Shown here piece by piece: positions 35,815 through 56,856 of a stretch of 64,000 nt of DNA (its first letter is position 1; each line of letters opens with the position of its first letter). The translations under genes were made by a program, and so were the position numbers. Location: positions 620,001 through 684,000 of the forward strand of contig NC_018227.2 of the NCBI RefSeq assembly GCF_000304355.2, read 5' to 3'. The stretch is from Methanoculleus bourgensis MS2. Its GTDB lineage: Archaea; Halobacteriota; Methanomicrobia; Methanomicrobiales; Methanoculleaceae. Below the pieces are notes generated by a model. The model was not told the origin of the DNA. It did not search any database and was given only the letters and a program-made list of their open reading frames with translations.

Positions 35815-38800
35815 GGGGGAGGGAGCAGTCTTTTGTCCGCGTCTCGGGCGGGATTGTCACAGAACACTTTGCCTCCCTGCTGCAGGACGAGAAGCACGGG
35901 TTTGAGTATGCCCGGCCGATGACGTTCGTCCGGCCCTGGCGGGAAGAGGACCTGCCACCGCAGGATGAGGCGCAGTTCCTCGCGCAGGTCAGGGATGTAT
36001 GGGAGCGGCTCCTCCGCCGGTTTGACGAGAAGTTCCGGGATATCTGGGCTGGAAGGATGAGTGCGGAGGAGGTCAGGCGTCTCTGGCAGCGGCCGGTGCT
36101 GGACGCGCTCGGGTTCGAGCCGACGTCCACGACGAAGCAGATCGTGATCAGCGACCGGCTGAAGTACCGGTTCTCCCACCGGGGCTGGTTCGCCCGCGAG
36201 GGGATCCCGAAACCGCCAGTTATCCATATCCTGCCGCCGGGGACGGACCCGGACGCCCGTCCCTCCCGCGGGGAGCCTTCACCCCACGATGCCCTGCAGG
36301 ACTGCCTGAACCGGCACGATGCGACCTGGGCGGTACTGATGAACGAGACGGTGATCCGGATCCTGCGGGACTACCATCATACGACGGTTCCGGGGTATGT
36401 GGAGTTCGATCTCGAAGGGATCTTCCTGAACCGGAGTTACCCTGAGTTCCTTGCGCTCTACCGGTTCTGCCACGCAAGCCGGTTCGCCCGCGATCCTGCG
36501 ACCGGCAGAGAGCCGCTGGAGGAGTACTACGAGGTGAGCCGTCAGGCGGGGGAGAAGATCGGCGAGAGCCTGCGGGGGAACGTGGTCCGGGCGATCGAGG
36601 AGCTCGGGAACGGGTTCCTGGACGGGTCGCTGATCGAGCGGCTGCGGGGCGATGACGGGGCTTGCCGGGCGTACTATCAGGAGGTCCTGATGGTGGTGTA
36701 CCGGATCATCTTCATGCTCTTTGCGGAGCAGCGGGGGATGCTCGGCGGCGGCGGGGACCACGGGGACCTCTTCCTTGAGGAGTACTCGATCACGTCGCTT
36801 CGGGAGCGGGTGGATGCGTTTGAGGGGCGGGACGACCGGAACACCGACCTCTGGGAAGGGCTCTCTGTGACGTTTCGGATGCTTGAGGAGGGCGTGCCCG
36901 AACTCGGGGTGAACGCATTTGATGGGATGCTCTTTTCAAACGACGGGGCCCGGTTCCTGAAGGATGCAAAGTGCCGGAACACGGCGCTGATGAACGCGAT
37001 CCGCTCGCTGACCTGGACAGTCTCAGAGACCGGAGGGAGGCGGCAGAGGGGTCACGGTCGCCAGCGGATCAGTTACGCCGACCTCTCGGTGGAGGAGATC
37101 GGGGCGATATACGAGAGCCTGCTCGATTACACGCCGCGGATCACCACGGGTTTTGAGGAGGTCAACGGGCGGGAGTACCGGCCCGGCCAGTTCATGCTGG
37201 ACCCACGGGGCTCGGAGCGGAAGACGACGGGGTCGTACTACACGAACCCTGACCTGATCGCGGAGCTGATCAAGAGCGCTCTTGACCCGGTGATCGCCGA
37301 CCGGCTCTCCCGGGCAGGACCGGATCCTGCAGCGAGGGAGAAGGCGCTCCTCTCGATCCGGGTCTGCGACCCGGCATGCGGGAGCGGGGCATTTTTGATC
37401 GCGGCCTCGAACCGGCTCGGCCGGGAACTGGCAAAGATCCGGGCCGGGACGGAGTTGCCTTCGGCGCAGGAGGTGCAGGCAGCCCGGCGGGACGTGCTCT
37501 CCCACTGCATCTACGGTGTGGACTTAAACCCGATGGCGGTGGAACTCGCGAGGGTCTCGCTCTGGATCAACGCGCTGGTAGGCGATAAGCCGCTCTCCTT
37601 CCTTGACCACCATATCAAGTGCGGGAACTCGCTCGTCGGGGCGACGCCGGAGCTGATCGCGGGAGGCATCCCGGACGGGGCCTACACGGCGGTGGAGGGG
37701 GACTCAAAAGAGGTCGCGAACAGGATTAAAAAGGCAAACCGGGAGCAACGGCAGACCCGGACGTTCGAGGAGTTCTCCGCCCGGTCTACGGTGCTGGAGG
37801 CCTGTGCCGGACGGTTTGCGGCGCTTGCGGAGGCCTCTGAGGACGACCCAGACAGTGTCGAGGCGAAGAAGGCCGAATATCAGCAGCTGATCACTTCATC
37901 CGAGTATGCAAAGGAGCGCCTGAGCGCGGACTGCTGGTGCGCCGCGTTCTTCTGGCCGCTGGATGGGGAGCACGCGAGGACAGCCCCGACGACCGCGACG
38001 GTGCGGATGGTTCAGGCGAGCGGGGGAGGGATGCTCGTTGAGGATACGTTGGCCGAGGTACGGCGTATTGCAAACGAGCACCGGTTCTTCCACTGGCACC
38101 TCGAGTTCCCGGAGGTCTTTGCGGACGGGGGGTTCGACTGCGTGCTCGGGAACCCACCGTGGGAGCGGATCAAGATCCAGGAGAAGGAGTTCTTTGCTTC
38201 CCGTGACCCGGACGTCGCCGGGGCAAGGAACGCCGCCGAACGGAACCGGATGATCAACGCCCTCAAGACCGGGAACCCTGCACTCCACGTGGAGTTCCTC
38301 GCCGCGAAGCGCTCGAGCGAGTGCGAGAGCCTCTTCATCCGCACCTCGGGCAGATTCCCCCTGACCGGGACGGGAGACGTCAACACTTATACAGTCTTCT
38401 CCGAACTCGCCCGGCGGGTGGTCGCGCCTCGCGGGCGGGCCGGAATCATCGTGCCGACCGGGATCGCGACCGACGCGACGACGGCGCCGTTCTTCGGCGA
38501 TCTGGTGGATCGGGCATCGCTCGTGAGCCTCTACGACTTCGAGAACAAGGAAGGATATTTCCCAATCGCTGGAATTAATAAGTTTTCATTATTTACAATT
38601 GTAGGTGAAGCGATTGAATCAAATAATTATGATTTTGCATTTTTCCTCAACAATGTAACTGATTTATACGATCCCGAACGTCATTTTACGTTGAAACCGG
38701 AAGAGATTGCAGTATTAAATCCTAATACCCATAATTGTCCCATTTTTAGAAACAAAAACGATGCAAAAATTGCTAAATCTGCTTATAGGAATATTCCAGT

Positions 38801-40361
38801 GTTAATTAATGAATCAGAGGGCGAGGCTGGAAACTCTTGGGGAGTCTCGTTCCAGACAATGTTCCATATGTCCAACGACTCCCACCTCTTCCGTACCCAC
38901 GAAGAGATGGCAGCGGCGGGGTTTGTGCTCGACGGGAACCGATTCGTGAAGGGGGAGGAGGTCTGGCTGCCGCTGTATGAGGCGAAGATGTTCCACCAGT
39001 ATGATCATAGATTTGGAACCTTTGAGGGCGTTACCAAAAAAAGCCAAAAAGTACTCCCCACTCCAAGAGAGGATCAGTATTCCGATCCGGTTTACACAAA
39101 TCAGCCCTGGTATTGGATAAATCAAGAATATGTGATACAAAAAGTAGGTTCAAACTCGAGATATTTTATAGGATTCAGGAATATTACGAACATTTCAACC
39201 AACCGAAGAACTGGAATGTTCTCATTTATTCCCTATTCTGGAGTTGCCCACTCTGCTCCATTGATGAGAGTTAATGGAGAACTATCGAATCCGTGCATAC
39301 TATTGATATCTAATCTTAATTCATTCATATATGACTATTTCCTTAGACAAAAAATTGGTGGGATGAATCTCACTTTCTTCATCCTCAAACAACTCCCCGT
39401 CCTCCCCCCCTCCGCCTATACCCCCACCCTCACCAACTTCATCGCCCCCCGCGTCATCGAGCTCACCTACACCGCCTGGGACCTCGAACCCTTCGCCCGC
39501 GACGTCCTCGCCGAGGTGGGCGTGGCACAGTGGAACGCCTGGTTCCCGGCAAACCCCGTCGGCGATGACGGCACACCCCGGCCGTTCGTCTGGGACGAGG
39601 AGCGGCGGTTCGACCTCCGGTGCGACCTCGACGCCCTCTACTTCCACCTCTACGAGATCTCGCGGGAGGACGTCGACTACATCATGGAGACTTTCCCCAT
39701 CGTGAAGAGGAAGGACGAGGCGGCGTACGGGAGGTACCGCACGAAGGAAGTCATCCTCCGGAAATACGACGACCTTGCCCGGGAGTTCGTCCGGGTGATG
39801 CGGGCCGATCTCCCTGAGAAGGATGGGAAGCCCGACTGGAGAGCGCTCATCGCCGGCGGTGAGAGCGAGCGGGTCGAGTTCAAGGAGTCGATATCCTGGG
39901 ACCGGGAGCGGAAGCAGAGGAACAAGGCGCTGGAGCACACCATCGCGAGAACCCTTGCGTCCTTCATGAACACCCACGGGGGTGTGCTCTTCGCCGGCGT
40001 CGATGATGCCGGGGGGATCGTCGGGCTCGACGGCGACCTGAAACTCTCCCAGCGGAAGAACGAGGACGGCCTGCGGCTCCGGTTCGACGACCTGGTGAAG
40101 CAGTACCTCGGCAACCGGTTCCTTCCCCGGATCATGATCCACTCGCTCGAAGACGGCGGAAAGGTGTTCTGGGCGGTCGAGGTCAGGGCTTCGAACGAGC
40201 CGGTATTCGTGAAGAACAACGGCGACGACGAGTTCTGGATCAGGGGGATGTCGTCGTCGCGGAAGCTCTCGATGCGCGAAGCCGTCGAGTACATAGAGAG
40301 GCGGAAGTCCGGCGGGGCCGGGGATCCCGATGCGGGTGAGGAAGCAGGTGAAGGAGAATGA
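35811..40361 (+). CDS. Eco57I-type N6-adenine DNA methylase fused to an AlbA_2 domain (DrmMI-like)
   Basis: 1516 residues. Motif I DPACGSGAFL near residue 520 and motif IV NPPW at 781-784 identify an N6-adenine methyltransferase. Residues about 1340-1500 form an AlbA_2 (Schlafen-like) domain: ESERVEFKESISWD, then FMNTHGGVLFAGVDDAGGIVGL. The long N-terminal part (1-500) is helical and I see no nuclease site, so it is a methylase rather than a type IIG enzyme. Codons for residues about 917-1001 and 1063-1188 are strikingly AT-rich, as expected for a swapped target-recognition domain. The gene sits between DrmD-like and YaaA-HEPN genes with 4-bp overlaps on both sides. Confidence 0.85.
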   Translation: MRGREQSFVRVSGGIVTEHFASLLQDEKHGFEYARPMTFVRPWREEDLPPQDEAQFLAQVRDVWERLLRRFDEKFRDIWAGRMSAEEVRRLWQRPVLDALGFEPTSTTKQIVISDRLKYRFSHRGWFAREGIPKPPVIHILPPGTDPDARPSRGEPSPHDALQDCLNRHDATWAVLMNETVIRILRDYHHTTVPGYVEFDLEGIFLNRSYPEFLALYRFCHASRFARDPATGREPLEEYYEVSRQAGEKIGESLRGNVVRAIEELGNGFLDGSLIERLRGDDGACRAYYQEVLMVVYRIIFMLFAEQRGMLGGGGDHGDLFLEEYSITSLRERVDAFEGRDDRNTDLWEGLSVTFRMLEEGVPELGVNAFDGMLFSNDGARFLKDAKCRNTALMNAIRSLTWTVSETGGRRQRGHGRQRISYADLSVEEIGAIYESLLDYTPRITTGFEEVNGREYRPGQFMLDPRGSERKTTGSYYTNPDLIAELIKSALDPVIADRLSRAGPDPAAREKALLSIRVCDPACGSGAFLIAASNRLGRELAKIRAGTELPSAQEVQAARRDVLSHCIYGVDLNPMAVELARVSLWINALVGDKPLSFLDHHIKCGNSLVGATPELIAGGIPDGAYTAVEGDSKEVANRIKKANREQRQTRTFEEFSARSTVLEACAGRFAALAEASEDDPDSVEAKKAEYQQLITSSEYAKERLSADCWCAAFFWPLDGEHARTAPTTATVRMVQASGGGMLVEDTLAEVRRIANEHRFFHWHLEFPEVFADGGFDCVLGNPPWERIKIQEKEFFASRDPDVAGARNAAERNRMINALKTGNPALHVEFLAAKRSSECESLFIRTSGRFPLTGTGDVNTYTVFSELARRVVAPRGRAGIIVPTGIATDATTAPFFGDLVDRASLVSLYDFENKEGYFPIAGINKFSLFTIVGEAIESNNYDFAFFLNNVTDLYDPERHFTLKPEEIAVLNPNTHNCPIFRNKNDAKIAKSAYRNIPVLINESEGEAGNSWGVSFQTMFHMSNDSHLFRTHEEMAAAGFVLDGNRFVKGEEVWLPLYEAKMFHQYDHRFGTFEGVTKKSQKVLPTPREDQYSDPVYTNQPWYWINQEYVIQKVGSNSRYFIGFRNITNISTNRRTGMFSFIPYSGVAHSAPLMRVNGELSNPCILLISNLNSFIYDYFLRQKIGGMNLTFFILKQLPVLPPSAYTPTLTNFIAPRVIELTYTAWDLEPFARDVLAEVGVAQWNAWFPANPVGDDGTPRPFVWDEERRFDLRCDLDALYFHLYEISREDVDYIMETFPIVKRKDEAAYGRYRTKEVILRKYDDLAREFVRVMRADLPEKDGKPDWRALIAGGESERVEFKESISWDRERKQRNKALEHTIARTLASFMNTHGGVLFAGVDDAGGIVGLDGDLKLSQRKNEDGLRLRFDDLVKQYLGNRFLPRIMIHSLEDGGKVFWAVEVRASNEPVFVKNNGDDEFWIRGMSSSRKLSMREAVEYIERRKSGGAGDPDAGEEAGEGE

Positions 40362-43221: not shown

Positions 43222-44997
43222 TCAAACTTTGCCAAATATAGAAGACCTCAAAGCCTTATCACACATAACTTTCTGCATCTTTTGGTTTACCTCCTGTATT
43301 GGGATTAACCCCTTCGAGGCGATGTCAAAGGTCAGGAATTTGACCTGAACACCCTCCAGATCGCAGAACATCTCCTCGAGCCAGAGCAGATCGCTCATAT
43401 GTCTAATGGCAGCAGTATTGTCGATGACGACGTAGACTCTTGCAGGCTTATTGCGATCTAATTCATATTTCAACACAGTCTCCGACAGATGGTTGATGAG
43501 CTCTTTTCCATTTCTGTCCCCGGCAAACAGCGTCTCTATCTCGTAATACCCATTGCCCTTCTTATCAAAAACGTCCGGAATGAAAAGTTCGGGGCTGGAG
43601 CTCGATTCCTGGGGCTTTTCGGTATGAATGGCTTTTCTTATCTCCGTAATAGTCTTCAACTGATATTTTTCAGAGAGGTATCGGACAACATAGCACTTCA
43701 TCAGATAGTGCTCATCGGACTCTCTGGATCTCTTTTTTGTCACGATCTGATACAGCCTGTTTTCTCCTCTGGTAAATGAGGTGAACACTTTCTCGTACTC
43801 TGCCCTACACTTTTTGTTGAAGACTACGTCCAGGTCATATGAAGAGATGTGCGTCCCCCTGCTTCCCCCATCGCGATAATGAGCAATTACCGGGGGTTCT
43901 TCCTTAACTCGTGCGCAATTGCCCCAGAAGATTGATGAAAGCCATCTCTTCTTATCGATTGAAAGGGAATTGGGCTTAACGACATGTATATCCAGGAGAT
44001 GGCCGATCTCAGATGCAAGCCGCTCTTGGACCAATAACCGGCAGTTCTCAAAGAGATCCTCTCTTCGGGACTTGAAGATAATGAACCCATAGTCTGCGGC
44101 GATTGCCCTCCTCAGGAAGTCACGCAGATTTTTTGGTCCAAACCACTTCTTTGCTTCCTCCTGGCTAAAGTAATCAAGATCCAGCGTGATAAGGTGACGG
44201 CCTGGATCTGCCCACTTGTCTAAATAGGTCACAATGGTTTCGTCCAGTCTGCTGACAGGCTGTAATCTCGGATCACCGCCTACCTGTTCCCGGTAGATAC
44301 GTAGACAACAGGTCTCAAAACTGGCCAGGGTGTTATCCTCGGGTCGCTCTTTGTAGAGAATGATCTTTGGCCGCCGGGTCGATAGATCGTCGTTTTTGAT
44401 CCCAAACAGGTACTGCATGACATCTGGAGGCTCCTCAGGTATGCCGGCGCCCCCTCCGGATGGTGAGTCGGGCGAGGTTGTCTCCGGGGTTTCCTCTGTG
44501 TCTTCACTATCAGCCGAAGTCTGTTCACGGAGCGTTGCGTATGTAGTGACCCAGTGCTCCTGGACATTGCTAGCACATTCGGTCCAGGTATTATGGAGAA
44601 CTGGAGCGGACTGTTGAAGACTCACCACAGGGACGTAAAAGTGGACATCTTCTTTTGATATTGAGTGAATATGATCGTCCAGCACAACCTTGCTCATGGT
44701 GATACTCCCCGGCCGTAAGCGGAGTATCGGCACACTCAGGTCCAGGGTGCTCTGCCGATGGATTTCAGGAACGGTGCAGTCGAGTTCAATTTTTGGGGGG
44801 TATTCTTTTGCTTGCTCCGGGAGTTTAACAATCGGGACGCTAACCACAGGGATAAGTTCGCCTTCAAAAAGAGATTCCTCTAATTCCAGCCCGTCGTTCA
44901 TATCACCTTCCGGTTCAGGTCTGGTATCTGCATGTATGCCCGGGGGATATCCACCGGGCATCCGCCCGCTGATCTCTTTATTCGTTCTCATGGACAT
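43222..44997 (-). CDS. Unknown protein with possible PD-(D/E)XK-like C-terminal domain
   Basis: 591 residues. Residues 30-200 are acidic and low complexity (Ser/Thr/Glu/Pro). The C-terminal part has HYLMKCYVVRYLSEKY, then FIPDVFDKKGNGYYEIETLF, resembling a PD-(D/E)XK core with ExE in place of ExK, followed by VYVVIDNT. The fold assignment is tentative. It is the last gene of the minus-strand run led by viperin and lies 36 bp after the preceding gene. Confidence 0.65.
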   Translation of the reverse strand: MSMRTNKEISGRMPGGYPPGIHADTRPEPEGDMNDGLELEESLFEGELIPVVSVPIVKLPEQAKEYPPKIELDCTVPEIHRQSTLDLSVPILRLRPGSITMSKVVLDDHIHSISKEDVHFYVPVVSLQQSAPVLHNTWTECASNVQEHWVTTYATLREQTSADSEDTEETPETTSPDSPSGGGAGIPEEPPDVMQYLFGIKNDDLSTRRPKIILYKERPEDNTLASFETCCLRIYREQVGGDPRLQPVSRLDETIVTYLDKWADPGRHLITLDLDYFSQEEAKKWFGPKNLRDFLRRAIAADYGFIIFKSRREDLFENCRLLVQERLASEIGHLLDIHVVKPNSLSIDKKRWLSSIFWGNCARVKEEPPVIAHYRDGGSRGTHISSYDLDVVFNKKCRAEYEKVFTSFTRGENRLYQIVTKKRSRESDEHYLMKCYVVRYLSEKYQLKTITEIRKAIHTEKPQESSSSPELFIPDVFDKKGNGYYEIETLFAGDRNGKELINHLSETVLKYELDRNKPARVYVVIDNTAAIRHMSDLLWLEEMFCDLEGVQVKFLTFDIASKGLIPIQEVNQKMQKVMCDKALRSSIFGKV

Positions 44998-45033
44998 GTA
45001 TAAACCCTCTTTTGTGATTCTTCGGACCTCCCA

Positions 45034-46155
45034 TTAGGCATAATTGGTGGAACGAATATACAGCGCCGGTCGTAACCCAACCTTCTTTTCCTCGTAATCT
45101 GTGCCCGGGTAACGTTTTATCTCCAGAATCGTCAGACCCGTGAAGAGATAAGGGGCAGCGATACGGAGGAAGTGCTGAAGGCTCATTTCACAAGCACGGT
45201 AAAAATTCCTCGAATCACCGGCATACCCCAGAACGTTAAGCCCGTTATCAGTGAGGTAGTATTTCGTTACCTCAAATGCCTCGCTCAGTGGTTTCAGACT
45301 GTTATTACTCGTGCGGACGGTTTCGACGAACTCATCCCGCAGTGATGGAACTTGACCGCCAAATAATGCAAAGGTGGACAACTCATCCCAGGCAATCTGA
45401 TTCATCTTATAAAGGCTGTCGGCGAACCCTTCTGGCGTATGTCCGATCAAAACCATATCCCCCTGATACGCTGTTTTGTCGACCTCAGGGATCTCGGCCA
45501 CCATCAGCCCTAACAGTGCTACCACCGCATCGAAATGTATTTTTAACCGCGGATAGGCCTCGATGAGGAAAAATTTTGGCGTTAGGCGGGTACTCATGGC
45601 AAAGAACGTATGATAGTTGTATGTCGCTGAGATCTTGATCAATTGAGAATATACCGTCTCGAATTCGTTTATGATACTCTCCGGCTCCTGGATGAAACCG
45701 TTAAGGACGTCCTCACCAATTTCAGGAGGAGCGTGGCCTACCACTCTGAGCATGTTACCGCTTAAACTGAGAACGTCGCTCAACCTATCAAGGATCAGCG
45801 GCTGAGAGAAGTGAATCTCGATATGGTGGAGAGTATCAGTATCGGGCTCCTTACATAACGAAACCCAGAGACGAGGGTCGATATATACTCCGATACGTTC
45901 TTTATAAAACTCGGCGAGGCTATTCTCGGCATATTCGCCATCCGGAGCTACTCCCCCGAGAAGTATCTTCTGGATACCCTTATTCTCTAAAAATGCGTCT
46001 GTAAAAGAGTTTCTCAATTTTTCCTTTAAATAATGAGAAAAATTAGTGATCTTGAGCGCTGCAGTGTGGAGGGGAAGGATCTCCGAGGCGACAAATTCTT
46101 TCCACGCGCCATCATCAGTATAATTAAAACCAAGCACTTCATCATATGTGGCCAT
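45034..46155 (-). CDS. Hypothetical protein, unknown family
   Basis: About 373 residues, no recognisable motif, no signal peptide or clear membrane helix. ATG 46155 (MATYDEVLGF) is preferred over a TTG at 46164. It lies 270 bp after the TPR-HEPN gene and 36 bp before the nuclease-like gene on the same strand. Confidence 0.7.
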   Translation of the reverse strand: MATYDEVLGFNYTDDGAWKEFVASEILPLHTAALKITNFSHYLKEKLRNSFTDAFLENKGIQKILLGGVAPDGEYAENSLAEFYKERIGVYIDPRLWVSLCKEPDTDTLHHIEIHFSQPLILDRLSDVLSLSGNMLRVVGHAPPEIGEDVLNGFIQEPESIINEFETVYSQLIKISATYNYHTFFAMSTRLTPKFFLIEAYPRLKIHFDAVVALLGLMVAEIPEVDKTAYQGDMVLIGHTPEGFADSLYKMNQIAWDELSTFALFGGQVPSLRDEFVETVRTSNNSLKPLSEAFEVTKYYLTDNGLNVLGYAGDSRNFYRACEMSLQHFLRIAAPYLFTGLTILEIKRYPGTDYEEKKVGLRPALYIRSTNYA

Positions 46156-46424
46156 AATCAACACCAGACAACCGAATGGTTAGCGAATAAGGCGATATAA
46201 CTTCCGTTTGCATCTTAGAACACGAATACACTATCTTGCCGAACCGGGCAATCGAAAATACTGGAGAAAAATCCGCCATCACAAAAAATAGCTCCAATAT
46301 GGAGATTTTCGTTGTGCTGGCCGATTTATTGAGAGGGGGATCGTACGGATATCCGGCGAGTCCATTTTTCTTTCAGATCAATATCCGCCCTTCCCAACCC
46401 GCATGTATCCCGCACTCACGCAGA

Positions 46425-49373
46425 CTACAAATCCCCGCCTGGCCTGGAGACTATGCCAATGATATCGTTAATGATCTTCACCATCTCGCCCCTCTTCTCC
46501 ATCACCTCATCCCTGCTGTAGAATGAGATGTGCGCCGCCCCATTTCGCTCAAGAGAAAGGTTCCGGCACAGTTTCCCGAGTTCATTGAGAATCTTCATAG
46601 AGAACCCCCTCTCCTGTAGCATATCAGAGAACGCCAGGGTAACCGGGTTTGCCCGGGTCTTCCTGATGTCGTTGCTGAGGTATCCCCACTGACCAAGGGC
46701 AAGCGACTTTTCGTCATTCCCAAGCACAGTCTTCAAGGTGAACGGGAGAGGAGGAATCTTCTTTTCATCAGACCCCTTCCAGAACATTGCCCGGACTCCA
46801 TTCTGGGGATCACTGTAGAACATGTTGTCCGACCGGATCCGTTCACGGATGGGAAGAAGAAGGCTCTCATGAAGCAGTTTCTCAACGCCCTTCCCGTACT
46901 GGATAACAACCGGCCCAAGATCGTAGATGCCTCTCTCAGGCCCCTTATACACGCTGAAGAGCAGCCAGTCCCCGGTCCTGAAGATGGAGCGGATCTCCTC
47001 AGAGTCGATGCGTGGTAGACCGATGACGTGGGCGGAGAGCTTGTCGATCTCCTCTTTCAGCTCCTGGTACGCCTCATTCTCAGGATCCAGCTCACACGCC
47101 TTGCTGATATCGGCGCTGGCGCGGTCATATTCCATCAGGTAGGTATGGCATTGTGCCATGCCGGCATACGCTTCTGAATACTCCGGTTCAGCCTTCTGTG
47201 TGCGCTCGAACCACTCACAAGCAGCTTGGTGACCCCCCTCCACAAGGAACGACACACCGATCATAGAGAGTACTCGGGCTCTTTCAGATGGAGTTTCAGA
47301 CCTCTCATGAGCGACCTGGAGCCATTGCCGCGCCTCCGTGCTTAAACCGTACCCGAGAAACACTTCCCCGATGAGGAGTGCCGGGTTGCTGGGAAGATCC
47401 ATCGAGTCGAACTCCTCCATGAACACCTGTAAAAATTGGGTTGAGAGAGCAGTGTTATCCCACATTGCTGTCTCACGCACTATCTGATTCAGGACAACAA
47501 CATGCACCGGCTCTTCCCCCTTGTAATGCCTCCTGGCGCAACATCGAAGGGCAGCGCGGATCAACTCGATCCCCTCATGGTCAACCTCCCCGTTGACCAA
47601 TGTACCGAGCAGTGCAGCAGCTATCCAGCAGAGTGCTTCCTGATGGGGAGTATCCGCATGCTCCGCAGCAAGTCGGTAGAACTCGATCGCTGGACTGATC
47701 TGCCCTGCATGTCGGCACAGGGCCGCTTTCTCCTGGTACAGCTTCGACGTAGGTCCGAGCGCGAGGAGCCTATCATTCCATCGGTAGGCATCGGCATGCT
47801 GAAAAGACCGTACTGCATTTTCATAGCGTCGCTGGTAGATCTCTGATCGCTTTTGTAACTCGATACGCTTGATTCGGCGGAAATCCGGGTCATCGAGTGT
47901 CATCGTGAGTAGATTCAGCCGATCAAGGGGTATACTTAAGCTGGTAGTTTCCAGATCTGGCAGAGATGCAAATTCAATCAAGTAGTTATATTCCAGATCA
48001 TAATGCCCGGTTCGGCGGCAGGCCTCAGCGAGGTTGTATATAATGGATGCACGGATCTCCGCCGGAAGTCGTTTTGCATCTGCCTCGATCTGTGCGATCT
48101 CCTTTCGGAAGATCTCACTTCCGCGGACATAGTATCGCATCTCCGCACAGTTCTTACGCTCAATAAACTCCTTGTAAATCTGATTTGCGGGATCAAGCTT
48201 CTTCGTTAGTTTCAGGGAGATCTCATACCACTTAAGAGCGGCTTTGTAGTCCTCGAACTCGCGATAGCAGGTTGCAACGACACTGGCAATGAAGTATTTT
48301 TGGCCCCCCTTCTTTTCACGAGAGTATGCACATTCACCTATCTTTGCAGCGTGCTCATAGAGGGTTGCATAGAACAACTGATTCAGTTTGTCCTGGCAAT
48401 ACCAAGAGATATTCAAACCAAGATCGGTGATTGCAGATAACATATCCTCCCTTATTGTAAAGGGATAATCGCCATTCAGAGTGGCTACCTTTTCTTCACG
48501 GGATAGGGTTAAAAACCACTCATACCCTGCGATGGTGGTCAGGTCAACCTCAAACTTCCAGAGGGCCGCAGGATCCTTGTGCTCGGTATGCAGGTCAAGT
48601 ATACTCCCCCCAAATATCGCCTTTTCAAGCGTCTGCTGGAACGGGAGCATCCATACGATGCACTCATGAAGTGACATCTCAGGAAGGGCCTGATCGCTTG
48701 TGGCAAAGTACCTCCCCCGGAACTTGAGGTTCTGGAAGAGGTATCTGTGGGAAGCGAGAAGGATATCATCGATGAAACCCGCCGCTGGAAAAAGAGGATC
48801 GTCAGATGCCATCTGATGGCCGTAGTAGCGACCGGTCTTCAGGTCGAGCATCAGGCGACGTATCGCCATGATCTCCAGGTCATTGTCAACCCTGCTCTCT
48901 GCGTCCTCCAGACGTGCCTGCAAATACCGCATCTTACTCTCGCGTTCACGTTCAGCACGTTCCTGATTGTACTGCTCTATCTCTGCAGGGTTCTCTGAGA
49001 AGCGGGCAACTTCTTCAAACGGGTTTTTACCCATCTCGATTGCTCTCTGCATGATCTCGGTCGAGCCCTTGGGACCAAGGGGTTCATCATCAGAGTACGG
49101 TATCCGGGCAGTCTCTCCGAAGAGAAGGAGGATGATCTCCCGGATTCTCTGCTGAACAGCAGGATTGTCGTTTACTGCATCCATGACGTGTAAAACAAAT
49201 CCAGGATCCCTTTTGTAACGGACCAGCAGCCAGTTCTCCAGTGCATGGTCGATAAACCGCTCACGCTTCTCTTCATGTGAAATGTCCTGAACCGACCGGA
49301 GGAACTCATGATCGGAATATATGGAGTACGACTCCCAGAGAAAGTCCCGAAGGATAGTAGAATTTAGTTCCAT
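46425..49373 (-). CDS. TPR-repeat protein with a C-terminal HEPN-like domain
   Basis: 982 residues. Tetratricopeptide repeats fill much of residues 350-800 (for example YKAALKWYEISLKL, SEAYAGMAQCHTYLMEYDRASADISKACELDPENEAY in part). The C terminus has CRNLSLERNGAAHISFYSRDEV, with an RNGAAH (Rx4H) motif typical of HEPN ribonucleases. The TPR part would sense a partner or phage product and the HEPN part would act as effector. ATG 49373 is chosen over the longer frame to 49424 because GGGGAGATGT precedes it. It lies 118 bp downstream of viperin. Confidence 0.75.
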   Translation of the reverse strand: MELNSTILRDFLWESYSIYSDHEFLRSVQDISHEEKRERFIDHALENWLLVRYKRDPGFVLHVMDAVNDNPAVQQRIREIILLLFGETARIPYSDDEPLGPKGSTEIMQRAIEMGKNPFEEVARFSENPAEIEQYNQERAERERESKMRYLQARLEDAESRVDNDLEIMAIRRLMLDLKTGRYYGHQMASDDPLFPAAGFIDDILLASHRYLFQNLKFRGRYFATSDQALPEMSLHECIVWMLPFQQTLEKAIFGGSILDLHTEHKDPAALWKFEVDLTTIAGYEWFLTLSREEKVATLNGDYPFTIREDMLSAITDLGLNISWYCQDKLNQLFYATLYEHAAKIGECAYSREKKGGQKYFIASVVATCYREFEDYKAALKWYEISLKLTKKLDPANQIYKEFIERKNCAEMRYYVRGSEIFRKEIAQIEADAKRLPAEIRASIIYNLAEACRRTGHYDLEYNYLIEFASLPDLETTSLSIPLDRLNLLTMTLDDPDFRRIKRIELQKRSEIYQRRYENAVRSFQHADAYRWNDRLLALGPTSKLYQEKAALCRHAGQISPAIEFYRLAAEHADTPHQEALCWIAAALLGTLVNGEVDHEGIELIRAALRCCARRHYKGEEPVHVVVLNQIVRETAMWDNTALSTQFLQVFMEEFDSMDLPSNPALLIGEVFLGYGLSTEARQWLQVAHERSETPSERARVLSMIGVSFLVEGGHQAACEWFERTQKAEPEYSEAYAGMAQCHTYLMEYDRASADISKACELDPENEAYQELKEEIDKLSAHVIGLPRIDSEEIRSIFRTGDWLLFSVYKGPERGIYDLGPVVIQYGKGVEKLLHESLLLPIRERIRSDNMFYSDPQNGVRAMFWKGSDEKKIPPLPFTLKTVLGNDEKSLALGQWGYLSNDIRKTRANPVTLAFSDMLQERGFSMKILNELGKLCRNLSLERNGAAHISFYSRDEVMEKRGEMVKIINDIIGIVSRPGGDL

Positions 49374-49491
49374 TACATCTCCCCTCAGCGCTGTTGACGA
49401 ACTATGCGCCGCTCCACCCCTCAATCACAACCGAGAATTGGAGAGAGGATGATATGAAACCCTGCCATTCGCGTTTTTGAGAAGGACCCCT

Positions 49492-50325
49492 TCACCATGC
49501 ATACACCCCACCCCTGCCGAGGTACAGTACCGGATCAACGTACTCCATAACCCCCGAGTGCAACACATCTGCAAGTGGATACTTCCGGATCACCCGCCCG
49601 GTGTCTGTCTTCACACAGCCTCCGGGAGTGATCATGAAATACGAACCCTCAATCATCGCAGACGACTCAAATACCGGCTGCACACCTCCACGGAGAATGA
49701 CATCTGCGTGACGGGCACAAAATGTCTGGAACTGTTTATCGGTCACCGCGAGGTCAGCCATCGCACCATCATTCTCACCCTGTATGTGGAGCATCTGGAG
49801 CACTTTCCAGCGGTCGGGAGAGGTTCTCTGGATGAAGTCTGCCATGTCCTCCTCCCATGTAAGCCTGGTGACCGTCGTGTTGATCTTCAGTCGGATCCCG
49901 GCTTCCCTGACGGCATCCGACAGGCCGATGCAGTGCTGGACATGTTGCCCGTAACCACGCCCGAGGCGTTTCTCGGTTGACTCGGATGCCGAGTCCACTG
50001 ATAGCGCGATCCAGTCGATACACGCAGCGTGCTCCCCAATGAGCTTCTGTGAGAGCAAGGAGCCGTTTGTGGTGATCGAAACGGTCATCCCGAGATCCCG
50101 TGCGGCACGGCAGTAATCAAAGAGGCGTGGGTGCAGCAGGGGCTCACCACCCGCAAAGTTGATCTTCTCCATTCCTGCATCTGCAAGATGTGAGAGGATC
50201 GTAAGACCTTCAGAGAATGATACTGGTTGTTCACCAAGGTTCCGGGCGAAACAGAAACGGCAGGAGTAGTTGCAGGTGGAGATCAGATGCCAGTTGACGG
50301 ACCGGATGACAGAATGTGCAGGCAT
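49492..50325 (-). CDS. Prokaryotic viperin (radical SAM, ddhNTP synthase)
   Basis: 277 residues. The radical SAM cysteines are C18, C22 and C25 (STCNYSCRFC). Viperin-specific blocks are present: SVNWHL, GMEKINFAGGEPLLHP, RWKVLQMLHIQGEN and the C-terminal LGRGGVYAW. Human viperin has very similar INFSGGEP, RWKVFQCLLIEGEN and RGGKYIW. Viperins convert CTP, UTP or GTP to 3'-deoxy-3',4'-didehydro nucleotides that stop phage RNA synthesis. It heads a minus-strand run with TPR-HEPN, an unknown protein and a nuclease-like protein. A CARF-wHTH gene is divergent from it, 93 bp away. Confidence 0.93.
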   Translation of the reverse strand: MPAHSVIRSVNWHLISTCNYSCRFCFARNLGEQPVSFSEGLTILSHLADAGMEKINFAGGEPLLHPRLFDYCRAARDLGMTVSITTNGSLLSQKLIGEHAACIDWIALSVDSASESTEKRLGRGYGQHVQHCIGLSDAVREAGIRLKINTTVTRLTWEEDMADFIQRTSPDRWKVLQMLHIQGENDGAMADLAVTDKQFQTFCARHADVILRGGVQPVFESSAMIEGSYFMITPGGCVKTDTGRVIRKYPLADVLHSGVMEYVDPVLYLGRGGVYAW

Positions 50326-50418
50326 GCATTACGATTCTAGAGGAGAATATCATCACCCTTCTTTGAAATTGTTTTTAAAATCGGAAACAAATTAAACAAC
50401 CCGGATGTATCATCTCCT
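50326..50418. promoter_or_regulatory. Bidirectional promoter region between viperin and CARF-wHTH
   Basis: 93 bp, AT-rich in the centre (GTTTTTAAAAT at 50371-50381 and AAATTAAACAAC nearby), consistent with TATA boxes for both directions. This is a natural place for binding by the CARF-wHTH protein. Confidence 0.45.
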
Positions 50419-51201
50419 ATGAGCCATCCGCACCTCCTCTTCATGAGTGCAGGAGAGCGCATCAACCAGACCTTTCCGATCTGCGTAAAAAGCCTCGAAG
50501 GAATCACCCATACGTTCATTGTGGTCGAAGAAGGGGTCTATCATGACCTGCCGGATGACCCTGAACACCTGAGGCCAGTAAAACCGCAGATCCGCCAGGC
50601 CATCGAAGGTGTGCGAGCGATTTGCGAGCCGCTGGCAATCTCATTTGCTGTAATCCGGACACCTGACACAACGATCCACTCCATCCGCGACGCCGTCCTC
50701 ACTACTACACGCCGGTACCCTGTAGCGCGTTACTCGTTCAACCTGAGCGGAGGAACAAAGATGCTCTCCCTCTCCCTCTTCATCATGGCCCTCTGGCTCG
50801 ATGCCCGGATCTACCTGACACCATCAGACGACCGCATCGAACAGGTTCTCATACCGAGAATGCACCTTGATGATGTCAGAAGGAACCCTAATTATGCAAC
50901 TGCTCTCTCAATTCTCTCGCGTAGGGGCACAGGAAATTGGACTTCCCGACAGGATTTTAGCAGGGAACTGGAGAAAGACTACCGACCTTCACGGTTCTCA
51001 GGCGACCAGGGGGTCACCCGCAGTCCAAACCGCGGGACAGTTACAAAGATCCTGCAGCAGCTCATTGAGTGGAACCTCATCGAGGAGTCATTCTGCCGCA
51101 ACAGCAGAAAGGCAAAACAGTACCGATTGACGCTCCACGGTGAATTTGCCTGGAAGGTGCTACAGGCAGAGGAGCAGGATGTTATACAGGAAGCAGAATA
51201 G
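50419..51201 (+). CDS. CARF-domain plus winged-helix regulator (Csa3-like)
   Basis: 260 residues. Residues 1-150 form a CARF-like Rossmann domain with the ligand loop SFNLSGGTKMLSLSLF near 106-121. Residues about 170-250 form a winged helix (TVTKILQQLIEWNLIEE). CARF domains usually bind cyclic oligoadenylates made by type III CRISPR, but no CRISPR array or cas gene is in the window. Being divergent from viperin, it is the likely local regulator. Ligand unknown. Confidence 0.78.
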   Translation: MSHPHLLFMSAGERINQTFPICVKSLEGITHTFIVVEEGVYHDLPDDPEHLRPVKPQIRQAIEGVRAICEPLAISFAVIRTPDTTIHSIRDAVLTTTRRYPVARYSFNLSGGTKMLSLSLFIMALWLDARIYLTPSDDRIEQVLIPRMHLDDVRRNPNYATALSILSRRGTGNWTSRQDFSRELEKDYRPSRFSGDQGVTRSPNRGTVTKILQQLIEWNLIEESFCRNSRKAKQYRLTLHGEFAWKVLQAEEQDVIQEAE

Positions 51202-51275
51202 TTGCACATCCTGGAAACAGTTTCCGGCCACAGTTAAGTGGTTCCCATTACACTCGTAGAATGGAGGTGAGCAAT

Positions 51276-51404
51276 GTGAGTAAGAAAGGAACAATGACAC
51301 CAGATGCGGCACGGCGAATCCAGGCCTCCGCCGACCGGAGCGGCACCAACCAGGGGTTTAAGTCTCGGGCAATGTCCTCTGCCACAAAGAGCTCCAAAAA
51401 ATAA
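51276..51404 (+). CDS. Small SMP-like protein (42 residues)
   Basis: GTG start at 51276 preceded at the right spacing by GGAGGTGA (51263-51270); the stop is TAA at 51402-51404, followed by a T run. The peptide reads VSKKGTMTPDAARRIQASAD, then RSGTNQGFKSRAMSSATKS. This resembles short seed-maturation (SMP)-type proteins widely found in archaea (TPDAAARIQ... FKSRA pattern). An ATG at 51261 is in frame upstream but would place the ribosome site inside the gene. Function unknown; stress-related in relatives. Confidence 0.6.
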   Translation: MSKKGTMTPDAARRIQASADRSGTNQGFKSRAMSSATKSSKK

Positions 51405-51413
51405 CTTTTTTTC
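51402..51413 (+). terminator. Poly-T terminator after the SMP-like gene
   Basis: A run of seven Ts directly after the stop codon followed by further pyrimidines, typical of archaeal intrinsic termination. Confidence 0.4.
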
Positions 51414-51495
51414 TCTCGAACCCCTCCTCACCCACCAGTCCCAAAAACCTATCATAAACCTTATTGTCTGCAACAGAGATGATCCATTACGTCCT

Positions 51496-54400
51496 ATGAC
51501 AAATACCAGTTTTGACCCGGTAACAGCCCTCGATACAGTTGCCGGCGCATATCGAACCTTTGTCAGTTCTTTCCAGAAATTCAAGAATCCCGTCATCAAA
51601 GAATGGATCGACAGAAAGATCGAGGAAGGAACCCTCCTCTACAAAGGCCCGTACATCGAGCTTGCCCGTCGGTACGCCGATGGAGACTCATTTGCGACCC
51701 TCACTGGAGAGCACATCCTCCATCCAGAAACTCCACAGTACTTCACCAGAGATCCGGCTGACCGGTCATCCCCTCCTGTCCGCCTCTACCGGCACCAGAG
51801 TGATGCAATACGATCGATACTCTCCGGGAAGAACACCGTCGTCACATCGGGAACCGGCTCCGGGAAATCCTTCTGCTTTGCGATACCGGTCGTCTCCACA
51901 TGTCTTGAGATGCAGGACCGGGGCCTCCGGGGCATCAAGGCAATCCTCGTCTACCCGATGAACGCGCTCGCAAACTCCCAGTACGATGACCTCGCGGCCC
52001 GCCTGGACGGCTCGGGTTTGAAGGTCGCCATCTACACCGGCGATACACCGCACACTTACAACGAAGCGCTCATCACATACCGGGAACGGACCGCGCGGGA
52101 CGCTCCCTACGACAGCGAGCTCATCTCACGGGAGGAGATCCAGCGAACCCCTCCGGACATCCTGATCACCAACTATGTCATGCTCGAGTACATCCTCACC
52201 CGGTTCGAGGACAAGATCCTCTTCCCGCCGGAGAACCTCGGCATCCTCAAGTACCTCGTCCTCGACGAGATCCACACCTACACCGGGAAGAAAGGCGCCG
52301 ACACCGCATACCTCATCCGGAGGCTGAAGCAGCACACCGGAACCACCGGCACGCTCCGGTGCATCGGAACCAGTGCGACCGTGAGAGAGGGGGAGGGTGA
52401 GAGGGCAGGAGCGGCCATCGCCGCGTTCGCCGCAAAACTCTTTGGTGAACTCTTTGACAGCACATCGGTCATCGGAGAGACATTCCTCCTTCCGCCCCGC
52501 GGCACGGAGAGCAAACTTCCCGACAGGGTTCTCGTCGGCGACGACCTGCTTCGCGTAAAGGAGCCCGGTGGGGATTACCTGAAGGAACTCACCGAACAGC
52601 TCATCGGCGAGCCGATCGGGATTCAAGATCCCTCAGCCGCCTATCTCGGGGAGACTCTCGGGTCGCAGAAGACTATCCAGTTCATCGAGGATCAACTTGC
52701 CGACGAACCAAAGAGTATTCCCGACCTGATCCGCATATATCGCGCGACCGTCAGGCAAGATGCCACATACGAAGAAGCGGCCCGGGAGATCGAGGCTGCG
52801 TTCATTGCAGGGATGCTCAGCGAGGTGCCTGTTGGGGATACCCTCCAGAAACGGTTCATCCCCAAGATGCACATGTACTTCTCCCAGGGGAGAGAGATCA
52901 AGTGCTGCCTCTCCCGCGACGGCCCCCACCTTCACGATGCCGGCGAGGTCACCTGCCCGGTCTGTGCGGAGAGAGGGCGAACACGGATCACCTTCCCCAT
53001 GGTCTTCTGCCGGGCTTGCGGCCAGGAGTACTACAGTGTCGAACTCCTGACCGACGGAACGGTCAGACCACGTGATCTGGATGCTCCCGCGCAGGAGGGA
53101 GAAGCCCTGTACCTCTATCTGGGAGAGTTTAGCGAGGAAAGGGCATCCCCGCCGGAGTGGTGGTGCACCGATTCCGGAGCGGTCAAAGAGAGGTATCGCA
53201 CCATAGCCACTCCGCGGACCGGCACTTACTGCCCGGACTGTAACAAACTGACTGTTGATGGAGAAGATGGAGAGATCTGCCTGTGCCCGGAGAAACTCCG
53301 CGTCACTCTCATCGAGATGCCGTTCCGGTTCTGTCCGAGTGAAGGCTGCGGCGTATCATATGACCTGAGAACGCGGAGGGAGTTCAACAAACTCTTCTCC
53401 TTCGGCACTGTGGGGAGATCTACCGCTACCGACATTTTAGTCTCGAATATGCTCATCACCCTTCCCGAAAAGGAGCAGAAAGTCATCGCATTCTCTGACA
53501 ACCGGCAGGATACAGCCTTACAGGCCGCCCACATGAACAATATCCAGAAGCGGATCCACTTCAGGCGGGGCCTGTATCATGCCCTGGCTCATGCCGAGAA
53601 CTCCCTCCCCCTCACCGAGGCAGGTGACGCCATCTTTGACACCTTTATGCAATATCGTGCAGACGGTGCTCTCCCTCAATACGAGAAGGATCCCGGTCAG
53701 GGCAGAATGCGGAGGGGCTCACAGGCTGAACCCGTGTACAGGAAATACCTCCTGCTGAATGCTATCCTTGAGATGGGTTCAACACGTCAGAAGAACCAGC
53801 CGAACCTTGAGGATGTTGGCCTGCTGCGAGTCACCTATGCCGGGCTGGACAGCCTCGCCGAGGATGACAGCCTCTGGGAGGACGTGCCCCAACTCTCGCA
53901 GGCAGGTCCTCGCAGGCGGGAGGATTACCTGAAGGGGTTCCTGGACATCATGCGGCATAATCTTGCCATCTCCTCCGATTTCTTCATGCGCCCCTATGAG
54001 TTTGCCGAAAGGATTGAGCGGTTCCTGAACCCGGATCTCATATTCCATAACGAGCTGCTCTCCACGCGGCCAACCGGGTACAGCGACAACGCGCGGAGAG
54101 AGACCTATCGGGCCACGGTCTTCCGTCTCACCCACCCGAGCGGGTCGCTGGTTCGCTGGACAAAGAAGTCGCTGGGAACAGAGACCACTGAAGAAGCGCA
54201 ACAGATCGTCGAACATGTAGAAGCAGTGCTTGCAGGCGAAGGCGGGCTGAAGCAGGAGCGTATCGACCGGGTTGGAACTCTCTCCATGATCAACCCCGAG
54301 ATCATCGAACTCTCGCTCGCTCCTCCCGGAGAGGTGCAGGTCTGCAGGAAATGCGGGCAGGTGACCCACTTCCATGAACTCAACCTCTGCATCAACCCGA

Positions 54401-56856
54401 ACTGCACCGACCTTATCTCGCTCGACCTCTCCAACAACTACTTCCGGCAGGAGTATACAAGGTCGTTCCGGGAAGCGGTCCAGCTCCATGCAGAGGAGCA
54501 TAGCGGACAGATCGACGGGGAGACCCGGAAACTGCTTGAGACTCGGTTCCGGGATTCGCAGGATAGCCTGAACGTAATCGTATGCACCCCTACTATGGAA
54601 CTGGGTATCGATATCGGAACCCTTTCGGCTGTCTACCTGCGGAATGTCCCTCCATCGCCCTCTAACTACGCACAGCGTGCCGGGCGTGCAGGACGAAAGT
54701 CGCAGGCCTCGATGATCATCACGTTCTGCGGTGTCGGCTCACGCCGCGGGCCTCATGACCAGTATTTCTACCGGTATCCGGCAAAGATGATCTCCGGAAA
54801 GATCGCCTCCCCCCGATTCCTGATGGACAACCGGATGCTCATCCGTGCACACATCCATGCTCTCATCCTTGAGATCATCACCCTTAAGATCCCGCAGAAG
54901 ATCGATGGGATACTCGACTTCGAGAAGGAAAACCTCCCGATGTTCACGGAAAGCATCTCGGGTGTGGAAGAAGGCCTCAGCAGAACCCGCCTCGGCGAGA
55001 TGATCGAGGAACACCGGGTGCAGATCCTGAACGCAATCAACGAGGTGCTTGCGGAGGAGAAGCAATCACTCGACTGGCTTGACGACACTTTCATCATACA
55101 GACCGTCGATTCGTTCGTCTCCTCGTTTGACGGTGCATTCAACCTCTTCAGGAGTGAGTTTTCAGCCCTCCTCAAAGAACTGGACGAAATTAACATCTTC
55201 CTGCAGAGAGGTCGGATCTCCGATCGGCAGAGAGGCGTCTATAAGCGAAGACGGGACTCAATCGAGAAGAAACTGAACGATATGCGGAACGGCGGCGGGG
55301 ACTTCACGACCTATCGGTATCTTGGCTCACAGGGTTTCCTCCCCAACTACGGCTTCCCCACACAGGTTACATCCCTTGCAATCAACTACAAGGGGGTCTT
55401 CGGGTCGGAAGAGGCGGAATTGAAGCGGGATCGCAACATCGCGCTGGTCGAGTACGCACCCGGCAACAGCGTGTACTTCAGCGGGAACCGGTACTCGGTC
55501 AGGACTCCCCGGCTCAGGACCGAGAACAACCAGCCCGCGATGAGCACCGTCCTCATCTGCCCATACTGTGAAGCGGTCTTCCTGGACGAGAAGGAGATCT
55601 CAATGACCGGTGGCGCCTGCAGGAACTGTGGTGCGTCCTTGGAAAATGCAGCAGTGATTCAACATTCAATTGAGATGCCCGACCAGCTGGCGGAGTCCAG
55701 ATCGACGATCACGAGCGACGAGGAAGAACGGCAACGTCTCGGCTATGAGGTCACCCGCCACTATGCCCCCTCAGGCGCACGACAATTTTACGTGGCGGGA
55801 GACCCCGGCGAACCGCTGCTCACCCTCTCCTACGACCATTCGGGAAAGATCGTCAGCATCAACCACGGTCCGATACCATCCGATAAGGATGAACCACAGT
55901 CGGGCTTCACACTCTGCACGGCATGCAACCGCTGGATCTTCGGGAAGGACGGGGTGAAAGACCACCTTGACTCAACGAATGAGATGAAGAGGTGTTGGAG
56001 GAACGGAACTGAGGAAAATATCATCAGGAATATCGTCCTCTACACCGACACCCGACACGACGTTGTCAAGATTGATGTGCCCGTTCCGCTTGATGGTGAG
56101 GGAAATCCGCTGGATGAGGAGTTGTATCGATCGTTCTTTACCACCCTTGCTCAGGCGATCATCGAGGGCGTCCAGATCAGCATGAACGTCGATGTAGATG
56201 AGATCCGGTACTTCCTGATGCCGGATCCCGAGAACAGGAAGAAGTCAAGCATCATTCTCTACGAGACTTCGGAAGGGGGCGCCGGAATACTCGAGTCGAT
56301 CGCTGATCGTTCCACGTTCCACGAGGTTATCAGACAGTCGCTGACTATCCTTCATGAATACGATGAGAAGAAGTGTGACCGGGCATGCTACGAATGCCTG
56401 TGCAACTACTACAACCAGTTCGACCATGATCTCCTTGACCGGAAACTTGTGCTCCCCCTACTTCGCTCCCTTCAGGAGGCAGAAGTCAGCATCATCCCCG
56501 ATCGTTCCTCTTCAGCTAAAGACCGGTTTGATGAACTTATGTCAAGGTGCGAGTCTTCTCTTGAAAAGCAGGTTCTTGAGGCGATCTATCAGGCAGGTCT
56601 TCCTCTCCCGGATAGCGGACAGGAAGTCATTGCGGAAGGAGATGAGATGATCGCCCGTCCGGACTTTGCCTACCAGAAAAATGGTCACTCGATTGTAATC
56701 TTTGTCGATGGACCGGATCATGAGCAGGAAGCCCAGATGCGGGATGATATGCGGAAGAGGGATCGACTTGACCTGATGGGCTATACCGTCTTCCCGATAA
56801 ATTACCAGGATTCTCTGGAAGAGCGCATTAAGAGCCTTTCGAAGTTATTGGAGTAA
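51496..56856 (+). CDS. DruE-like giant DEAD-box helicase with DUF1998 and C-terminal nuclease-like domain
   Basis: 1786 residues. Walker A SGTGSGKS near 120, DEIH in LVLDEIHTYTG near 256, TSATV, helicase C VCTPTMELGID near 1030, QRAGRAGR near 1060. Zinc-finger-like Cys pairs occur throughout (CPVC...CRAC near 485, CRKCG...CINPNC near 950, CPYC...CRNCG near 1355). A DUF1998 segment with CDRACYECLCNYYNQF sits near 1620. The last about 70 residues (ARPDFAYQKNGHSIVIFVDGPDHE) look like a DUF559/PD-(D/E)XK-type nuclease. Size and layout resemble DruE of Druantia; MrfA and DISARM DrmA/DrmB are related alternatives. ATG 51496 is preferred over an upstream extension to 51304. Confidence 0.85.
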   Translation: MTNTSFDPVTALDTVAGAYRTFVSSFQKFKNPVIKEWIDRKIEEGTLLYKGPYIELARRYADGDSFATLTGEHILHPETPQYFTRDPADRSSPPVRLYRHQSDAIRSILSGKNTVVTSGTGSGKSFCFAIPVVSTCLEMQDRGLRGIKAILVYPMNALANSQYDDLAARLDGSGLKVAIYTGDTPHTYNEALITYRERTARDAPYDSELISREEIQRTPPDILITNYVMLEYILTRFEDKILFPPENLGILKYLVLDEIHTYTGKKGADTAYLIRRLKQHTGTTGTLRCIGTSATVREGEGERAGAAIAAFAAKLFGELFDSTSVIGETFLLPPRGTESKLPDRVLVGDDLLRVKEPGGDYLKELTEQLIGEPIGIQDPSAAYLGETLGSQKTIQFIEDQLADEPKSIPDLIRIYRATVRQDATYEEAAREIEAAFIAGMLSEVPVGDTLQKRFIPKMHMYFSQGREIKCCLSRDGPHLHDAGEVTCPVCAERGRTRITFPMVFCRACGQEYYSVELLTDGTVRPRDLDAPAQEGEALYLYLGEFSEERASPPEWWCTDSGAVKERYRTIATPRTGTYCPDCNKLTVDGEDGEICLCPEKLRVTLIEMPFRFCPSEGCGVSYDLRTRREFNKLFSFGTVGRSTATDILVSNMLITLPEKEQKVIAFSDNRQDTALQAAHMNNIQKRIHFRRGLYHALAHAENSLPLTEAGDAIFDTFMQYRADGALPQYEKDPGQGRMRRGSQAEPVYRKYLLLNAILEMGSTRQKNQPNLEDVGLLRVTYAGLDSLAEDDSLWEDVPQLSQAGPRRREDYLKGFLDIMRHNLAISSDFFMRPYEFAERIERFLNPDLIFHNELLSTRPTGYSDNARRETYRATVFRLTHPSGSLVRWTKKSLGTETTEEAQQIVEHVEAVLAGEGGLKQERIDRVGTLSMINPEIIELSLAPPGEVQVCRKCGQVTHFHELNLCINPNCTDLISLDLSNNYFRQEYTRSFREAVQLHAEEHSGQIDGETRKLLETRFRDSQDSLNVIVCTPTMELGIDIGTLSAVYLRNVPPSPSNYAQRAGRAGRKSQASMIITFCGVGSRRGPHDQYFYRYPAKMISGKIASPRFLMDNRMLIRAHIHALILEIITLKIPQKIDGILDFEKENLPMFTESISGVEEGLSRTRLGEMIEEHRVQILNAINEVLAEEKQSLDWLDDTFIIQTVDSFVSSFDGAFNLFRSEFSALLKELDEINIFLQRGRISDRQRGVYKRRRDSIEKKLNDMRNGGGDFTTYRYLGSQGFLPNYGFPTQVTSLAINYKGVFGSEEAELKRDRNIALVEYAPGNSVYFSGNRYSVRTPRLRTENNQPAMSTVLICPYCEAVFLDEKEISMTGGACRNCGASLENAAVIQHSIEMPDQLAESRSTITSDEEERQRLGYEVTRHYAPSGARQFYVAGDPGEPLLTLSYDHSGKIVSINHGPIPSDKDEPQSGFTLCTACNRWIFGKDGVKDHLDSTNEMKRCWRNGTEENIIRNIVLYTDTRHDVVKIDVPVPLDGEGNPLDEELYRSFFTTLAQAIIEGVQISMNVDVDEIRYFLMPDPENRKKSSIILYETSEGGAGILESIADRSTFHEVIRQSLTILHEYDEKKCDRACYECLCNYYNQFDHDLLDRKLVLPLLRSLQEAEVSIIPDRSSSAKDRFDELMSRCESSLEKQVLEAIYQAGLPLPDSGQEVIAEGDEMIARPDFAYQKNGHSIVIFVDGPDHEQEAQMRDDMRKRDRLDLMGYTVFPINYQDSLEERIKSLSKLLE

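Follow-up and report, generated by a model that had tools for sequence, protein, structure and literature searches.

A CARF–winged-helix protein as the probable dedicated regulator of an archaeal viperin cassette with two operator-like sites

In the window, a stretch of 64,000 nucleotides from Methanoculleus bourgensis MS2, a gene for a protein with a CARF domain and a winged helix-turn-helix (wHTH) domain is transcribed divergently from a viperin gene, behind which a TPR protein is encoded (Table 1). With a probability of roughly 70% we take this protein to be a dedicated, cassette-local regulator that would bind two short dyads, op1 and op2, would be switched by a nucleotide not made by Cas10 and would control viperin together with the TPR protein and its HEPN-like domain. 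This model builds on what we observed directly, namely the linkage of the two genes, the parallel divergence of their products, sites private to the cassette, the CARF motifs and the lack of any detected known cyclase.

Table 1: Features of the viperin locus and its surroundings, in window coordinates.
Feature	Position	Strand	Basis
CARF + MarR-like winged-helix regulator, 260 aa	50419..51201	+	PADLOC PDLC02909, AlphaFold2/Foldseek, CARF motifs
Intergenic region common to the two divergent genes, 93 bp	50326..50418	.	ORF bounds
op1, two-box dyad GAAATTGTTTTTAAAATCGGAAACAAATT, candidate operator	50365..50393	.	Conserved across loci; one of the genome's two sites
op2, candidate auxiliary operator; second dyad copy, GAAACTGTTTCCAGGATGTGCAACTATTC on the minus strand, overlapping the stop codon of the CARF gene	51196..51224	.	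Recurrence at linked loci
Viperin, 277 aa, radical SAM, CX3CX2C motif	49492..50325	-	NF038283; PDLC02903
TPR protein with C-terminal HEPN-like domain	46425..49373	-	PDLC02907; motif in 14/14 relatives
Two unassigned proteins (376 and 591 aa) behind the TPR gene	43222..46164	-	Possible accessory genes
Druantia DruE-like helicase	51304..56856	+	PADLOC DruE, 439 bits
DISARM-like DrmD helicase and DrmMI methylase genes	32911-40361		PADLOC

Pairing of the CARF gene with viperin

The earlier note, made from the sequence alone, had described a CARF–wHTH regulator divergent from viperin at a distance of 93 bp, and both points could be confirmed, the distance being exact by the ORF bounds. The regulator matches the PADLOC model PDLC02909, named ‘Csa3’, over profile positions 1–236 of 237 (338.4 bits, E 6e-102) and stays under the cut-offs of the NCBIfam Csa3 model TIGR01884 (14.2 vs 60.2 bits) and of Pfam Csa3_N (15.2 vs 27 bits). 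Its AlphaFold2 model, calculated with 26 homologues as input, has a mean pLDDT of 90.6, and Foldseek against the PDB returned CARF effectors as well as each of the three Csa3 structures present there, with E values of about 1e-6, the best full-length matches being Csa3 (2wte, 6w11 and 6wxq). In a profile search the C-terminus resembled MarR-family and archaeal wHTH structures (best E 1.7e-4), and the domain order is CARF followed by a MarR-like wHTH. The CARF loop reads SFNLSGGTKM and is conserved; the viperin-linked homologues retain motif I (SAGExI) as well as motif II (SFNxSGGTK), the latter as SFNxTAGTA in a subset. The CARF signature is [DN]-x-[ST]-x3-[RK], which NLSGGTK fits, and as the pocket motifs of the regulator are intact a nucleotide ligand is to be expected.

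The viperin passes the curated cut-off of NF038283 (263 vs 180 bits), matches PADLOC PDLC02903 (E 8e-77) and contains CNYSCRFC. Close matches bear Methanomicrobiales and Methanofollis names. From 199 genomes of the order, 22 encode a viperin over the cut-off and one more a viperin broken by a contig end, and 19 genomes hold 21 CARF–viperin pairs, 19 of them divergent and two in tandem with the CARF gene first (genome-level Fisher p 6e-10). The gap in the divergent loci measured is 90–102 bp, with 154 bp in two. In a sample of 393 genomes of the phylum there are 29 viperin loci, 22 of them with the CARF gene alongside; of the 20 CARF matches of at least 200 bits, 19 adjoin viperin. One strong match, in genome G272 (locus L133), has no viperin. 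CARF genes unlinked to viperin in relatives, which the earlier note had named as evidence against its proposal, are thus not what we found for close relatives. A second, AT-rich lineage (f8; L126–L132) contributes seven divergent pairs, with the TPR protein found by BLAST in six of the seven loci and a nucleotide-kinase-like gene following viperin in the five loci scanned. As a side observation, two viperin-like genes flank the nucleotide-kinase-like gene (AAA_17/AAA_18) in L127, L130 and L132.

Comparing CARF and viperin distances over 26 pairs gave a mirror correlation of r 0.81, which none of 2000 permutations reached, and this argues that the two proteins diverge in parallel, pointing to a presumably stable co-inheritance. 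By its gene content the window region is a defence island, comprising DrmD-like, DrmMI-like and DruE-like genes, and one might therefore suppose that CARF and viperin are functionally unrelated and stand together by chance. Against such a coincidence the linkage statistics, the parallel divergence and the conserved operator-like dyad described below speak strongly, and we find it hardly credible. The DruE-like helicase adjoins the regulator gene in five loci and belongs to the same island; its membership in the viperin system is only putative. The 376-aa and 591-aa proteins behind the TPR gene are kept only in L064, one close relative.

Five viperins of the order have no CARF gene and show another divergent gene instead, coding for 555–591 aa (cluster c16 in L084–L088, for example L085:9603-11270). 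Its product, whose N-terminus looks HTH-like by eye, matches nothing in Pfam, PADLOC or PHROGs and is possibly an alternative viperin regulator. Lower-scoring CARF–wHTH homologues without viperin exist as well, in genus g16 (L089–L101, up to six matches per genome), where their neighbours are PAS sensor kinases and a proton-pumping pyrophosphatase instead of defence genes. This group, from which the dyads are absent, served as negative control.

A different kind of neighbourhood was seen in L066 (10045-16666), L067 and L082 and partly in L080, L068 and L079, where a Mokosh/DISARM-like set of an MkoA-like helicase, an unassigned protein and a PLD nuclease stands after or beside viperin. A small protein (c20) precedes the MkoA-like helicase in L066, L067, L080 and L082, and the one in L066 is a stand-alone CARF protein (GLTGGTNLM), the second CARF protein there.

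Operator-like dyads op1 and op2

The 93-bp region contains a two-box dyad, GAAATTGTTTC-N8-GAAACAATTT, which we call op1 and which is perfect, as AAATTGTTTC-N8-GAAACAATTT, in L071, L075 and L078. The intergenic DNA is otherwise unconserved outside this central dyad, box identity over ten loci being 80% and 78% vs 35% and 28% in the flanks. In order to score the sites we used a 21-point consensus with a threshold of 16, a value reached by about 1% of 101-base windows. A score of at least 16/21 is found for op1 in 18/20 viperin-linked loci and in 0/15 unlinked CARF loci, where the consensus was derived from these same linked loci, not all of them mutually independent. Two tests are independent of this derivation: the consensus, fixed before testing, scores 20/21 in L131 and L132 of the second lineage, and a genome-wide search allowing up to three mismatches found only op1 and op2 in the whole genome, a single contig of 2,789,774 bp. 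The other five loci of the second lineage (L126–L130) do not fit the op1 consensus, and L128 has a dyad of its own with 10-bp arms and an 8-bp spacer. The boxes are 8 or 9 bp apart and admit a second reading, as a pair of 11-bp palindromes at a distance of 19–20 bp, which would account for both spacings.

The second site, op2, reaches at least 16/21 at the 3’ end of the CARF gene in 12/20 viperin-linked and 0/15 unlinked loci; it is absent from about 8/20 linked loci and diverges in one half. In the 12 linked loci that have it, the centres of op1 and op2 are 821–900 bp apart. The genes to the right of op2 differ between loci and often lie far off, so that an auxiliary site is its best reading. 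In L069, one of the tandem loci, the 3’ site stands before viperin. We also considered whether op2 serves the DruE-like gene of five loci as its operator and rejected this, as op2 occurs likewise in loci where the gene that follows is convergent, unrelated or at a great distance.

In genomes G003, G009 and G033 the best sites lie again only within the cassette, and no consistent dyad sites were found outside it in the relatives searched; an unlinked site in G031 falls within coding sequence and was regarded as background. The CRISPR repeats of the genome are unlike the dyad. Owing to the AT-richness of the DNA, a dyad-only shuffle test reaches no significance in most loci taken singly, and the evidence for the putative operator is its conservation across species, not this single-locus test.

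Boxes rich in A and T are also what one would expect of divergent archaeal core promoters, so the dyads might be BRE and TATA elements arranged back to back with no regulator site at all. We hold this to be improbable, as promoter elements recur genome-wide and only two sites exist in 2.79 Mb, as op2 is found at a gene 3’ end with no consistent promoter adjoining, and as the dyads are missing at unlinked CARF genes. It is very improbable that op1 and op2 are recombination or mobility ends between which the CARF gene moves or inverts as a unit: they do flank the gene in 12/20 loci and the two tandem loci have it in the other orientation relative to viperin, but no recombinase was seen linked to the unit, op2 overlaps the stop codon and has one diverged half, and the parallel divergence speaks for stable co-inheritance. 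Control of viperin by the CARF protein, which the earlier note had offered as a possibility, has thereby gained strong support from conserved linkage, parallel divergence and a conserved operator-like dyad.

Ligand makers and the TPR partner

The earlier note had further spoken of a regulator ‘without CRISPR’, which holds for the window, with no cas gene among its proteins scanned, but not for the genome, where a complete type I-G locus (Cas3g, Cas8g, Cas7g, Cas5/6g and Cas4/1) with more than 140 repeats is located near 2.62 Mb, about 1.95 Mb from the window. A second Cas1 is encoded elsewhere (G000 1159595-1160410, L109), with no CRISPR array found in the surrounding 39 kb.

Neither Cas10 nor mCpol was detected in the host genome, and the search for CD-NTases, which covered the SMODS model, gave 24.6 bits at best with a cut-off of 26.5, this match presumably being the CCA-adding enzyme. 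The check for type III CRISPR or CBASS cyclases proposed in the earlier note has therefore returned no Cas10 and no SMODS CD-NTase over the cut-off, and a cyclic oligonucleotide made elsewhere, as it had considered, is disfavoured as far as these known makers are concerned. Cas10 is present in 3/26 pair-carrying genomes and in 0/8 genomes searched of the second lineage, and in the order it is not enriched with the pair (3/19 vs 16/180, p 0.40). Type III signalling cannot serve genomes that are free of Cas10. These results bear on a relay of the Csa3 type, in which cyclic oligoadenylate from a type III complex would lead to activation of viperin as an ancillary effector. Such a relay would agree with the CARF fold and motifs, with the nearest solved relatives, which bind cA3, cA4 or cA6, and with Csa3a of Saccharolobus, which binds cA4 (PMC8699464, PMC8844856), but with Cas10 undetected here and in 23 of the 26 pair-carrying genomes and not enriched with the pair in the order we give it a low probability.

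Another possibility is that the CARF domain binds a ddhNTP or a derivative of it and thereby exerts feedback on the viperin cassette. The tight pairing and parallel divergence with viperin, the nucleotide-binding fold and the fact that the Cas10, SMODS and mCpol searches found no other known ligand maker are all in line with a product sensor. We nevertheless regard it as doubtful, as in the CARF pockets studied to date the ligand is a cyclic oligonucleotide held across the dimer, as we know of no precedent for a mononucleotide ligand, and as homologues without viperin exist.

The TPR protein behind viperin matches PADLOC PDLC02907 with 1347 bits. In its C-terminus R-N-x3-H is invariant in 14/14 relatives at identities down to about 22%, the residues in the window being R960, N961 and H965 when counting begins at 49424, the start of the long ORF. 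The likely start lies near 49373, as judged by a conserved methionine. The C-terminal domain is modelled as mostly helical, with R-N-x3-H where a helix ends, in agreement with the R-x4-6-H that terminates a helix in all-helical HEPN domains. Among the 14 relatives, some have matches to four Pfam HEPN families (best 7e-6); the copy in the window has no Pfam match by itself, and a PDB fold search with the C-terminal model gave nothing significant. The C-terminus is thus a probable metal-independent HEPN RNase.

Proposed mechanism and relation to known systems

According to the model we favour, that of a dedicated cassette-local regulator, a homodimer would bind op1 in the divergent promoter region through its MarR-like winged helices, cover the promoter region shared by both genes and in this way control the regulator gene itself and, to the left, the unit of viperin and the TPR-HEPN protein. 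Bound at the 3’ end of the regulator gene, op2 would probably strengthen this control, either by cooperative binding or through DNA looping over about 830 bp. The protein would then be switched by a nucleotide-type ligand bound in its CARF pocket, most likely with relief of repression on infection. DNA binding, the sign of control, the ligand and looping are what we infer here from the observations above. Divergent MarR-like regulators are commonly ligand-released repressors. As Csa3a has been described as activator and Csa3b as repressor (PMC7465815), we lean only slightly towards repression over activation. The ligand is probably not a cyclic oligoadenylate made by Cas10, and candidates for its source are the viperin product, an unrecognised cyclase and RNA ends generated by the HEPN partner.

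Csa3a and Csa3b from Sulfolobales share with our regulator the order of CARF and MarR-like wHTH domains and transcription away from the presumed target genes. Csa3a of Saccharolobus is associated with CAPPa, an 18-bp palindrome TCCC-N8-GGGA with the same 8-bp spacer geometry as op1, and binding of the purified protein to CAPPa was nonspecific and independent of cA4 (PMC8699464). In contrast to these proteins, the regulator has SGGTK in motif II and not L-X2-G-h-R, scores far below the curated Csa3 cut-offs, is tied to viperin and not to type I-A or other cas genes, occurs as a pair mostly in Cas10-free genomes and has a different half-site. The methanogen CARF–wHTH protein MM_0565 from Methanosarcina mazei is a dimer that binds its own promoter; unlike our regulator it lies beside a type I-B CRISPR system and has broad effects with no defined motif, and viperin is not mentioned for it (PMC7465815).

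The PADLOC model PDLC02909 agrees with the regulator in full length and in its neighbours, and its accession adjoins the pVip models PDLC02903-02905 and the TPR model PDLC02907, which suggests that the CARF gene had been collected as a viperin neighbour. The model carries no function, operator or ligand, however, and the name of PDLC02907 is without HEPN. Viperin-TPR has been described as the only type of defence system exclusive to Archaea (PMC12988326, citing Bernheim et al. 2021); the window locus has that pair, and the main text of this source does not mention a CARF regulator. In the open literature searched we came upon no description of viperin being regulated by a CARF protein, of the op pair, of the independence from Cas10 or of the HEPN domain. 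Known before were the PADLOC models of both families, CARF and TPR, and the viperin-TPR system type; new, as far as checked, are the private operator pair, the independence from Cas10, the second lineage and the HEPN-like domain.

In a further-reaching version, which we put forward only tentatively, a CARF–wHTH switch outside CRISPR and CBASS would sense a ddhNTP or another nucleotide signal not made by any known cyclase and act on two private operators, making the viperin and TPR-HEPN ribonuclease cassette an inducible form of archaeal innate immunity that might by analogy be likened to the interferon-induced viperin of animals. Little has to our knowledge been described of how prokaryotic viperins are controlled and sense infection, and the locus offers a testable answer with one regulator, two short sites and one cassette. 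It also points to CARF domains working without Cas10, whose ligand could reveal a new nucleotide signal or the first ddhNTP sensor, and the HEPN-like domain makes the archaeal TPR partner a candidate ribonuclease effector.
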